From Candidatus Phycosocius bacilliformis (lineage in GTDB: Bacteria > Pseudomonadota > Alphaproteobacteria > Caulobacterales > Aquidulcibacteraceae), in the NCBI RefSeq assembly GCF_003112735.1, contig NZ_BFBR01000001.1:124001-188000 (forward strand): a stretch of 64,000 nucleotides of DNA, read 5' to 3'. Position numbers and translations under genes: made by a program. Shown here piece by piece: positions 17,516 through 52,813 of the stretch (the stretch's first letter is position 1; each line of letters opens with the position of its first letter). The notes below the pieces were generated by a model. That model saw nothing but the letters and a program-made list of their open reading frames with translations. It made no database searches and was not told where the DNA came from.

Positions 17516-17620
17516 AGGTCCCGGATCGGCGGACGCCGTCCTGGATGATACACGTATGTTCATTTGAACCCTCTTAACTTTTGCCATCCGCGCCGACGTG
17601 CGGGCGGAGAGCGGGGACCT
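17516..17620. repeat. Divergent copy of the genome's palindromic repeat
   Basis: Two arms separated by 32 bp: 17516-17549 (begins AGGTCCCGGATCGGCGGA) and 17582-17620 (ends GAGAGCGGGGACCT). Each arm matches, in reverse complement, an arm of the repeat array at 45671-46131 (GTCATCCCGGACGGC...GGGACCT and AGGTCCCCGCTCTGCG...GGATGAC). Intergenic palindromes of this kind are common in alphaproteobacteria; their role is unsettled. Confidence 0.75.
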
Positions 17621-17690
17621 CATCGCGGGTGTGCGGAAATAGATACCTGCGGCGTCCCTCCAAGATTTTTCTAAAAAGTCCCCCACCCCC

Positions 17691-17720
17691 TAGACAGGTT
17701 CCGCAAACTGAGGCGTTATG
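17691..17720 (+). promoter_or_regulatory. Possible promoter of the short unit at 17.7-17.9 kb
   Basis: TAGACA (17691-17696) resembles a -35 box; GTTATG (17715-17720) after an 18-bp spacer is a weak -10 candidate. Transcription would start near 17727, giving an RNA of roughly 175 nt that ends at the hairpin at 17868-17895. Weak match, supported mainly by position. Confidence 0.35.
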
Positions 17721-17754
17721 GTTATCCCATTAGCAACTGAAAGGAGGTGATCCG

Positions 17755-17817
17755 ATGTCTCATTGTCTGCCCTTGTGTGAAATGTCTGTCAGGATCCCTT
17801 CGGAGGCGCGCGCCTGA
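17755..17817 (+). CDS. 20-codon small ORF behind a near-perfect Shine-Dalgarno sequence
   Basis: Encodes MSHCLPLCEMSVRIPSEARA. It is preceded at 17739-17752 by GAAAGGAGGTGATC, which is complementary to almost the whole 3' tail of 16S rRNA, with seven bases between AGGAGG and ATG. It is far stronger than the ribosome sites of the surrounding genes. The 3' half of the ORF and the bases just after it can form two stem-loops (CCTTCGGAGG; GGCGCG...CGCGCC), and an intrinsic terminator follows 50 bases after the stop. It may encode a real micropeptide, act as a leader peptide, or be part of a small RNA that captures ribosomes. No family recognised. Confidence 0.5.
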   Translation: MSHCLPLCEMSVRIPSEARA

Positions 17818-17867
17818 CGCGCCCGACTTCGATGTAAGATCGGACCATTTCACTGGTCTGGCAATGG

Positions 17868-17903
17868 AAAGGTCGCTGGGCAACCGGCGACCTTTCTTGT
17901 TGT
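17868..17903 (+). terminator. Intrinsic terminator ending the short unit
   Basis: Perfect 9-bp stem AAAGGTCGC (17868-17876) / GCGACCTTT (17887-17895) with a 10-nt loop, followed by CTTGTTGTTC. It lies at the 3' end of the minus-strand GNAT gene (stop at 17905) and points in the plus direction; in the minus direction the flanking A-rich run is weaker. Confidence 0.85.
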
Positions 17904-51549: not shown

Positions 51550-52494
51550 ATGGGCATGCTGCGCGATCTTGGCCTCAAGCTCGATACGTGGCATGGGCGT
51601 ACCGCGATGGCGCGGTTTAAGAATGGCTGGCCCGCTCACGCGTCACCCGATGTCGGCTTTTACCGCACGCCACTGACCCAGTATCGCTATCGGGTGGTTG
51701 GCTCTGGCCCGACTCTCGTCTTTGCTGCTGATCCGCCCATGAGTCTGGAAAATTATGACGGGCTGATCGAGGCCTTCAGCCCATACTTCCGAGTAATTGT
51801 GTTTGAACTGCCTGCTATGGGATTCAGCGCGGTCAGCTCTGACTATCGCTTTGACTTTTACCAGACCAATGACGATGTCGCCCGCTTTCTTGCCGATGTG
51901 GCCGGTGAGGGAGCCATTCTGGCCTTCTCCTGCGTGGCAGGCCTTTGTGCAGTCGATCTGGCTTGCCGACGGCCCGAATTGGTATCGCGCCTTGCCTTGA
52001 TACAAACCACAGATGTGGCGGGATTTGCCGTTTGGAAAGCGCGTCGTGACCCCCAAGGCATTCTGGCCAAGCCCATTATCGGCCAGCTTGCCATGAAGCA
52101 AATGGCCCCCAAGCGCATGCCGGATTGGTATCGGCTGTCGGTAGGACGCAAGGAAATGATTGACGCGCTGGTTGCCTGTGCGTGCCGGTCGTTTGAGCAT
52201 GGGGCCATGTGGTCTTTGGCCAGCGCTTATCAGGTCTATATGGACCCGAATATCAGGCTTGGCCGTCCGAAACAGCCCGCACTAGCTTTCTGGGGCCAAG
52301 CTGACCGCAGTCATCCTGCCGAGCATGTCGACAGCCCCAAACGTTTGGCCGACCATGTTGACATGATTGTCTACCCCGATCTTGGCCACACGCCGGAATT
52401 GGAAGACCCTGCCCGCCTGTGTGCGGATTTGCGGGCTTGGATTGCCAAAAGCGGACAGGTCTTCCCACCAGCGCCAGAAGCGCCTATAATATAG
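51550..52494 (+). CDS. Alpha/beta hydrolase with apparent Cys nucleophile
   Basis: 314 residues. Alpha/beta hydrolase pattern: oxyanion region AADPPMSLENYDGLIEAF, FRVIVFELPAMGFS, nucleophile elbow LAFSCVAGLCAVDLA, acid in WGQADRSHP and His in YPDLGHTPELEDP. At the elbow, where G-x-S-x-G is normal, the sequence is F-S-C-V-A-G, so Cys128 appears to take the Ser place (as in dienelactone hydrolases). Translationally coupled to the YdhR-like gene. Its last codons contain the ssrA promoter -10 box. Substrate unknown. Confidence 0.85.
   Translation: MGMLRDLGLKLDTWHGRTAMARFKNGWPAHASPDVGFYRTPLTQYRYRVVGSGPTLVFAADPPMSLENYDGLIEAFSPYFRVIVFELPAMGFSAVSSDYRFDFYQTNDDVARFLADVAGEGAILAFSCVAGLCAVDLACRRPELVSRLALIQTTDVAGFAVWKARRDPQGILAKPIIGQLAMKQMAPKRMPDWYRLSVGRKEMIDALVACACRSFEHGAMWSLASAYQVYMDPNIRLGRPKQPALAFWGQADRSHPAEHVDSPKRLADHVDMIVYPDLGHTPELEDPARLCADLRAWIAKSGQVFPPAPEAPII
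52462..52490 (+). promoter_or_regulatory. ssrA promoter inside the hydrolase gene end
   Basis: TATAAT (52485-52490) is a perfect -10 box, with TTCCCA (52462-52467) 17 bases upstream as a weak -35. The TATAAT overlaps the last codons of the hydrolase gene, whose stop is 52492-52494; the mature acceptor RNA starts about 52494-52497. Confidence 0.6.
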
Positions 52495-52577
52495 AGGTCC
52501 GGTTCGCCGGACTATGGTGATAAACGTGCGTGTAATAAGCAGGCCGGACCGGGGTGCGATTCCCCGCGGCTCCACCA
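52494..52577 (+). ncRNA. ssrA: tmRNA, acceptor piece (circularly permuted)
   Basis: About 84 nt ending in CGGCTCCACCA (52567-52577): the 3' acceptor strand and encoded CCA. Just before it, GGGGTGCGATTCCCC is a T-arm. In alphaproteobacteria the ssrA gene is permuted and the acceptor piece comes first. The last seven bases before ACCA pair with the start of the coding piece (GGGGCCG at 52606-52612). Exact 5' end not visible. Confidence 0.9.
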
Positions 52578-52605
52578 AAATCTCTGCGGGTGTCGCCGCG
52601 AGTGT

Positions 52606-52813
52606 GGGGCCGATCAGGATCGACGGATGTGTAAAGACGTAACTTTTACCCGCGTGGGCTTCGTCATCCGCCCATTTTCATAAATGCAAACGATAACTTT
52701 GCACAGGACGTCCGTTTGGCTGCGTAATGCGGTCTGATTGACTTCCGACTAAGTCCCCCGGCTACGGCTGAGGGCGGGGCGCGGAGGGGGGCCCGGCAAC
52801 AGCAACCCCCTCC
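52606..52813 (+). ncRNA. ssrA: tmRNA, coding piece with tag ANDNFAQDVRLAA
   Basis: Begins GGGGCCGATCAGGATCGACGG, the conserved 5' end of tmRNA. The tag frame starts at the GCA resume codon at 52686 and reads A-N-D-N-F-A-Q-D-V-R-L-A-A, stop TAA at 52725-52727. The first six residues equal those of the Caulobacter tag (AANDNFAEEFAVAA after the charged Ala), the LAA end is what ClpX reads. The 3' limit is set at the perfect hairpin GGAGGGGG/CCCCCTCC (52783-52813). A 28-nt linker to the acceptor piece is removed in processing. Confidence 0.92.

Follow-up and report, generated by a model that had tools for sequence, protein, structure and literature searches.

A divergent CC2171 homologue in Candidatus Phycosocius bacilliformis with an extended Shine-Dalgarno sequence and a conserved short reading frame

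Introduction

The Caulobacter small RNA CC2171, a name that reportedly goes back to work by Landt in 2008, is represented in Rfam by the family RF01867, the structure of which includes a long-range helix between an early TCATTGTC and a late GACAATGGA as well as a 3' terminator hairpin. In the parts of the literature accessible to us, CC2171 and RF01867 appear only in the Rfam 15 covariation update and in a table line of a survey of Mesorhizobium sRNAs, and no functional study was found; the sections of that survey that we consulted list an RF01867 locus in the sRNA table and report 19 annotated sRNAs detected by RNA-seq (PMC5596092). Searching the literature with the sequence, the peptide and the name of the family returned nothing on function, and the only match to the RNA sequence, in the accessible part of PMC6943124, was to the 16S oligonucleotides of a YbeY assay.

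Among the literature examined, which was available in part, the closest worked-out mechanism is that of the DUF1127 uORF attenuator of S. meliloti (PMC12218461). According to the sections available, the first codons of this attenuator fold together with its ribosome site, and its authors suggest that it can sense ribosome shortage (PMC12218461). Here we describe an element from Candidatus Phycosocius bacilliformis, located in a 64-kb stretch of DNA (the whole of which is referred to below as the window), which is real and conserved and is homologous to a named sRNA that the literature searched leaves unexplained.

Results

Identity and layout of the element

A preliminary description of the window had drawn attention to a near-complete complement of the 16S rRNA 3' tail at 17739-17752, and this was borne out: GAAAGGAGGTGATC lies there and, together with the following C, makes up an exact 15-nt complement (Table 1), as judged against the alphaproteobacterial tail GGCTGGATCACCTCCTTTCT, taken from three named plasmid-borne rRNA loci (Rhodobacter, Phyllobacterium and Azospirillum) and not from the host itself. 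The exceptional strength attributed to this extended Shine-Dalgarno sequence (SD) was likewise evident, the runner-up among stretches exactly complementary to the 18-nt tail being only 9 nt long on both strands of the window; AAAGGAGGTGATC occurs a single time in the 3.3-Mb assembly. The reported gap of 7 bases to the ATG at 17755 holds for the core GGAGG, the full motif ending 1-2 nt upstream of that codon, and the 20-codon ORF was found as described. A terminator hairpin is present too, with 14 pairs and a loop of 4, in place of the 9 bp at 17868-17895 given originally. In nine assemblies of the genus, GGATCACCTCCTT was met only as the complement of the element and never in an rRNA, even in a genome consisting of one contig; the rRNA is probably missing from the sequences searched.

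Table 1. Position of the features of the element within the window
Feature	Position	Strand	Evidence or remark
Promoter-like region, CTAGAC ... TATGGT (weak, putative)	17690..17722	+	Genus-level conservation begins about here
CC2171-like RNA	17731..17894	+	RF01867 full-length match, model 1-159 of 159, 63.7 bits, E 5.3e-13
Extended SD, GAAAGGAGGTGATCC	17739..17753	+	Complementary over all 15 nt to the 16S 3' tail of Alphaproteobacteria
20-codon ORF, MSHCLPLCEMSVRIPSEARA	17755..17814, stop TGA 17815-17817	+	Frame conservation, dN/dS examined
Long-range helix, 5' arm (TC and CATTGTC, codons 2-5)	17758..17767	+	
16S-tail mimic in ORF, AGGATCCCTTCG, complementary to own SD	17791..17802	+	L001 z -1.4; family tests
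Long-range helix, 3' arm, GGCAATGGA, adjoining the 5' side of the terminator	17860..17868	+	
Intrinsic terminator, 14 pairs, loop of 4	17866..17897	+	Terminator scan

DNA homology within the genus begins at query positions 120-153, that is, from position 17679 of the window. The position profile of 142 relatives displays a T-rich, -35-like peak about 50 nt upstream of the SD and an A/C-rich leader in front of it; a scanner found no sigma-70 consensus promoter at the element. Folded as a 172-nt or as a 213-nt RNA, the region beats all 200 dinucleotide shuffles (z -3.63 and -4.55, respectively). Just upstream of the element (17573-17648) the intergenic DNA contains a dispersed repeat, about 40-65 bp long, for which 12 further places in the same genome are listed at E <= 0.001 and others occur in the genus. 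Elsewhere in the window, a tmRNA gene (52458-52813) matches the alpha (permuted) tmRNA models.

No Rfam family matched the element at gathering thresholds, and RF01867 emerged as the best one with a permissive setting. The match spans the full length of the model, and its score of 63.7 bits does not reach the gathering score of 75 bits, which 6 of 18 related loci exceed; the window element is thus a divergent CC2171 homologue, judged from the alignment to the model, that formally stays under the family threshold. In the covariance alignment the two share the leader, the SD, the TGTCTCATTGTC arm, the pre-terminator GACAATGGA arm and the terminator. Both the long-range helix of RF01867, with one G-U pair, and its terminator hairpin are present in the window (Table 1). 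At E <= 0.001 RF01867 was detected in 22 of 115 genomes of the class, five of them above the gathering score, and was not found in the other 93; of 14 well-known genomes used as controls, Caulobacter vibrioides was the only one with a match.

Spread among the Alphaproteobacteria

All eight other genomes of the genus carry a homologous stretch of 183 to 259 bp with both the SD and the ORF. Loss of the two in close relatives, which the preliminary description had named as a reason to abandon its proposal, was therefore not seen. Further relatives were sought with the pattern AAAGGAGGTGATCC, 0-3 bases, TGTC. Its exact form occurs in 42 of 289 sampled genomes of the class, with one copy per matching genome, and the reversed pattern in none. 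In a sample of the phylum the pattern was present in 45 of 299 genomes, all 45 being among the 86 from the class or closer, and in none of the 213 outside the class (manual counts of the listing). Given that the exact pattern was not found in 247 of the 289 sampled class genomes (nor in 41 of the 86 from the phylum sample), and that RF01867 is missing from most genomes of the class searched with it, the element is far from universal. Variants with other bases after GGTG also exist (L184, L196 and L199).

In the named collection at least 117 stretches bear the pattern, and among the 80 matches with titles listed 76 are alphaproteobacterial or plain 'Proteobacteria'. The remaining four (L069, L102, L074 and L124) come from metagenome assemblies titled Gemmatimonadetes (2), Acidobacteria (1) and Woeseiaceae (1), and could represent members, transfer or misbinning; model R1 gives L102 a poor score (E 0.66). 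An element closely related to that of the window's genus is found on a contig titled Aquidulcibacter, a genus of Caulobacterales (L109). One genome, G072, holds two copies of different type, MSHCH and MSHGSA (L186 and L201). Of 77 loci not included in its alignment, model R1 matches 76 at E < 0.001. This test is partly circular, as these loci were mostly fetched by the SD pattern, and hence does not prove that they form a single family; the Rhodobacteraceae and MSS types are less certain relatives.

Genomic neighbourhood

In the window, the element is preceded by purC and purS and followed by convergent genes for a GNAT protein and then a class I lysine-tRNA ligase. Seventeen neighbour proteins of several clades were compared by tblastn with 173 loci, covering up to 4 kb on each side where available. 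Most neighbours proved to be confined to one clade, such as a branched-chain aminotransferase-like gene (named by eye) at 13 loci; the GNAT gene recurs at 10 loci and the ligase gene at 11. In this search purC and purS were found at no locus but the window's own, which has two locus identifiers, so the upstream gene varies even within the genus. The suggestion that the element occupies the slot expected for purQ did not hold, purQ being on another contig, and a link to purine genes was rejected on these grounds.

The gene of the ribosome-rescue factor ArfB (NF006718, 179 bits, cut-off 100) lies within 1.4 kb of the element at 18 of the 173 loci (L131, L075, L072 and L117, for example). At 15 loci of Rhodobacteraceae type it is located downstream on the same strand, its distance from the SD ranging from 179 to 1134 bases, and at three loci of Hyphomonas type upstream on the other strand. 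A queuosine-precursor transporter gene is found upstream of the element at 18 loci of Rhodobacteraceae type.

These arrangements bear on the idea that the element is a cis-acting leader or attenuator of a neighbouring gene, one of three options offered in the preliminary description. In kind, the element does resemble the uORF attenuators of Alphaproteobacteria, and the co-directional arfB of the Rhodobacteraceae-type loci would be in line with such a role. A conserved co-directional downstream gene was nevertheless not found: the next gene in the window is convergent, arfB changes side and strand between the two types, most tested neighbours belong to single clades, and a terminator recognisable by a simple rule is present in 152 of the 175 distinct elements collected. 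We give the leader reading next to no weight. Comparison of loci instead supports an independent gene, with neighbours that appear to depend mostly on the clade.

A conserved frame with a near-neutral peptide

These 175 distinct elements form the clean set behind the family counts, from which 143 representatives were kept by k-mer similarity; loci L224-L226 are left out of all counts. As most elements were fetched by the AAAGGAGGTGATCC...TGTC pattern, their SD is not a free observation. An exact tail complement of at least 14 nt is present in 171 of the 175, the fetch pattern fixing 14 bases in most, and one of at least 17 nt in 64; it may run into the start codon (GATCCAGTG). Shorter complements occur in some elements found with the family model, such as AAAGGAGGTGGTCC in L184 and AAAGGAGGTGCCC in L199, from which it follows that the full length of the complement is not essential.

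In the frame set by the SD, a stop before codon 13 occurs in none of the 143 representatives; in frame 1 such a stop is present in 55 of them and in frame 2 in 59. The stop falls at codons 13-27 in 130 of them, where 200 mononucleotide shuffles of the 108 bases from codon 5 onwards gave 40 on average and never more than 57. When similar sequences were removed more strictly, the most dissimilar subset still had no early stops in 34 elements (17 and 20 in the other frames). This frame-specific lack of stops across homologues is the kind of signal by which translated small ORFs are recognised, and it would be hard to explain without translation.

That the ORF of a non-coding sRNA is there by chance consequently appears very improbable. 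RF01867 is indeed classed as an sRNA and the helices covary; furthermore, in the accessible part of a study of Caulobacter, intergenic ncRNA regions are described as untranslated, with two exceptions (Schrader et al. 2014, PMC4117421). The chance reading is nonetheless hard to square with a frame that is never closed early while the two others often are.

Conservation of the frame does not extend to the peptide. Crude pairwise dN/dS estimates, in which the pairs are non-independent and codons 1-2 are left out, amount to 0.93 for the Aquidulcibacter type (26 pairs), 1.03 for the MSS group (14 pairs), 1.08 for a 14-codon group of mostly Bradyrhizobium type (20 pairs), 1.09 for the Rhodobacteraceae type (45 pairs) and 1.14 for the Sphingomonas type (93 pairs). 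Two small groups are lower (0.54 for SHC, with 2 pairs, and 0.73, with 5 pairs). Among close relatives, variation is not highest at third codon positions, and the peptides of different clades share little past the initial M/V/L-S. Purifying selection on amino acids was thus not seen in any of the five groups with at least 14 pairs, and these comparisons indicate that translation is conserved while the peptide sequence is close to neutral.

A functional micropeptide served by a strong ribosome site, another of the options raised initially, is accordingly disfavoured, and we consider it quite improbable. The very strong conservation of the frame would suit a peptide, as would the low value of the SHC group, which comes from two pairs only. 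Values of dN/dS close to 1 in every larger group (up to 93 pairs) stand against it, as does the scarcity of residues shared between clades, the bases just after the common start being located in a paired arm. Because the pairs are not independent and constraint on the RNA can blur dN/dS, this is evidence against a function of the peptide, not proof. Of the checks proposed in the preliminary description, the search among relatives thus gave a recurring pattern and a kept frame, without the bias towards silent sites that a peptide would lead one to expect; a further one, on compensatory pairing, turned out positive for two helices, one of them only in some clades.

Two crossing helices

The long-range helix connects codons 2-6 with the stretch before the terminator, and its sequence differs between three sets (CATTGTC/GACAATG, CATGGT(T)CAGC/GCTGACCATG and GTGAG/CTCAC). 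Pairing was tested on those 118 of the 143 representatives that have a terminator in the allowed range. The mean energy of the duplex formed by each element with its own partner is -9.8 kcal/mol, compared with -7.8 for permuted partners and -8.5 for the best of 2000 permutations; the own partner is the single best one in 1 of the 118 elements and within the top tenth in 29. In an alignment of 43 of the 45 SHC-type sequences, 94% of the cells of this helix are paired.

The second helix is formed by the SD and a mimic of the 16S tail inside the ORF, for example CTGGATCnTCGCCTC. Pairing of the SD with the ORF is stronger than in dinucleotide shuffles (z -1.16 +- 0.11, 118 elements), whereas the controls lie near zero: -0.06 for the sequence that follows the ORF (101 elements), -0.11 for the reversed SD (118) and 0.01 for the complement of the SD. 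Own pairing of SD and mimic reaches -16.2, against -15.2 when permuted, and 0 of 5000 permutations were as good. Moreover, covariation with the mimic was seen at the base that follows GATCC, which is able to pair in 49 of 88 cases where 37.6 are expected (0 of 5000 shuffles as high); in the window itself this base (G) is mismatched to the mimic (A). Shuffles and permutations do not fully preserve relatedness in any of these tests or in those on the alignment below.

In the SHC-type alignment, 83% of the cells of the SD-mimic helix are paired, and both sides have changed in three of its seven pairs. Cells changed on both sides number 16, against 4.4 in shuffles (0 of 500 as high), and shifting the partner by 1-3 columns lowers the pairing of the whole structure from 89% to 23-48%. 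Two of five measures were unremarkable, namely pairs with changes on both sides (5 against 3.2, equalled in 61 of 500 shuffles) and further pair types (15 against 13.0, 60 of 500).

The location of the mimic varies with the clade. When the region searched did not depend on the ORF, 92 of 143 representatives overall had their best mimic entirely upstream of the stop; by group the figures are 39 of 49 for SHC, 26 of 32 for MSS, 11 of 21 for the Sphingomonas type and 0 of 16 for the Rhodobacteraceae type. Support for a lock between SD and mimic is strongest among SHC and MSS elements, weak in the Sphingomonas group and lacking in the Rhodobacteraceae group. The idea of a mimic at a fixed distance before the stop fitted SHC as long as the search was confined to the ORF, and failed once it was untied from the ORF end.

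As the two helices cross each other, they would form either a pseudoknot or a switch, and a nested folding program, which displays one or the other, cannot decide between these. Among the 118 elements it gave mainly the long-range helix in 62, mainly SD-ORF pairing in 16 and both in none; for the window, the respective values are about 0.3 and 0.5.

Discussion

Comparison among relatives shows a unit with an extended SD, a short ORF that is always open, a long-range helix, a mimic of the 16S tail in several clades, a terminator, and independence from most neighbours; it also shows a peptide sequence close to neutral. Of the options in the preliminary description, an sRNA with a ribosome site comes closest: a short independent unit and a conserved RNA structure are supported, to which conservation of translation itself has to be added, while a micropeptide and a leader peptide found no support.

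Our leading reading, to which we would assign a little less than an even chance, is that this stand-alone CC2171-like RNA of about 170 nt is gated by ribosomes that initiate on it. The long-range helix and the lock between SD and mimic would be alternative states or parts of a pseudoknot. Because the SD, the start codon and codons 2-5 fall within the ribosome footprint and the mimic lies on the path of the ribosome, a 30S subunit or a translating ribosome would compete with both helices, and initiation followed by elongation might open the two of them. The fold of the RNA, and hence its stability or its pairing with other RNAs, would then track the supply of initiating ribosomes, so that the RNA would either report on these or be protected by them. 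The absence of translation described for most intergenic ncRNA regions of Caulobacter counts against this reading.

A bolder version, which we hold to be doubtful, is that an RNA widespread in Alphaproteobacteria senses how plentiful free initiating 30S subunits are by combining a tail complement with an internal mimic in an ORF whose product is irrelevant, loading of ribosomes flipping it between a self-locked form and an open one that would act on other RNAs or on subunits. Should evolution indeed be preserving the translation of an ORF with a neutral peptide, the element would be a natural sensor of ribosome supply, or a ribosome-gated RNA, across much of the class. Being translated may itself be the signal, a question that can be tested in Caulobacter.

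Next in rank after a ribosome-gated RNA come two other roles, each of them distinctly unlikely in our estimation. The RNA might be directed at the 16S rRNA, pairing with the whole single-stranded 3' tail so as to retain free 30S subunits or to influence maturation of the 16S 3' end, with the ORF letting the subunit leave. The great length of the complement in most elements, even into the start codon, and the proximity of arfB in two types of loci are in line with this; the shorter complements of L184 and L199 are not, nor is the covariation between the mimic in the ORF and the base beyond GATCC, a place at which the three 16S tails read have an identical base. Alternatively, in a trans-acting sRNA the ribosome site could be mainly a 5' stabiliser, the ORF merely loading protecting ribosomes, for which the stand-alone unit with its usual terminator, the near-neutral peptide and the A/C-rich leader before the SD would be appropriate. 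A stabiliser alone, however, explains neither the narrow range in which the ORF ends nor the pairing of SD and mimic.

Set beside the systems described so far, ribosome gating of the kind we favour would have its nearest counterpart in the S. meliloti DUF1127 uORF, also an alphaproteobacterial ORF the translation of which sets the accessibility of the RNA; as portrayed in the available sections, that attenuator is a cis element upstream of a gene and presumably Rho-dependent, whereas the window element stands alone with its own terminator (PMC12218461). The alphaR8 or SisA-D RNAs of Caulobacter are likewise alphaproteobacterial sRNAs, with an anti-SD-like 10-mer; the likeness drawn here is one of description, and the portion of text examined mentions neither an SD nor an ORF (PMC12559287). 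The extended SD sites of S. aureus similarly lengthen the SD-anti-SD helix towards the start codon, but belong to firmicute mRNAs, and a self-pairing mimic is not mentioned in the portion examined (PMC13009471). With CC2171 itself the element shares the long-range helix, which is already part of the Rfam structure and not new; RF01867, in contrast, is typed as an sRNA gene, with a structure line that shows no ORF, no 16S-tail complement and no SD-mimic pairing. What is new with respect to that family is that translation is conserved although the peptide is near neutral, together with the spread over the class and the pairing of the SD with its mimic.
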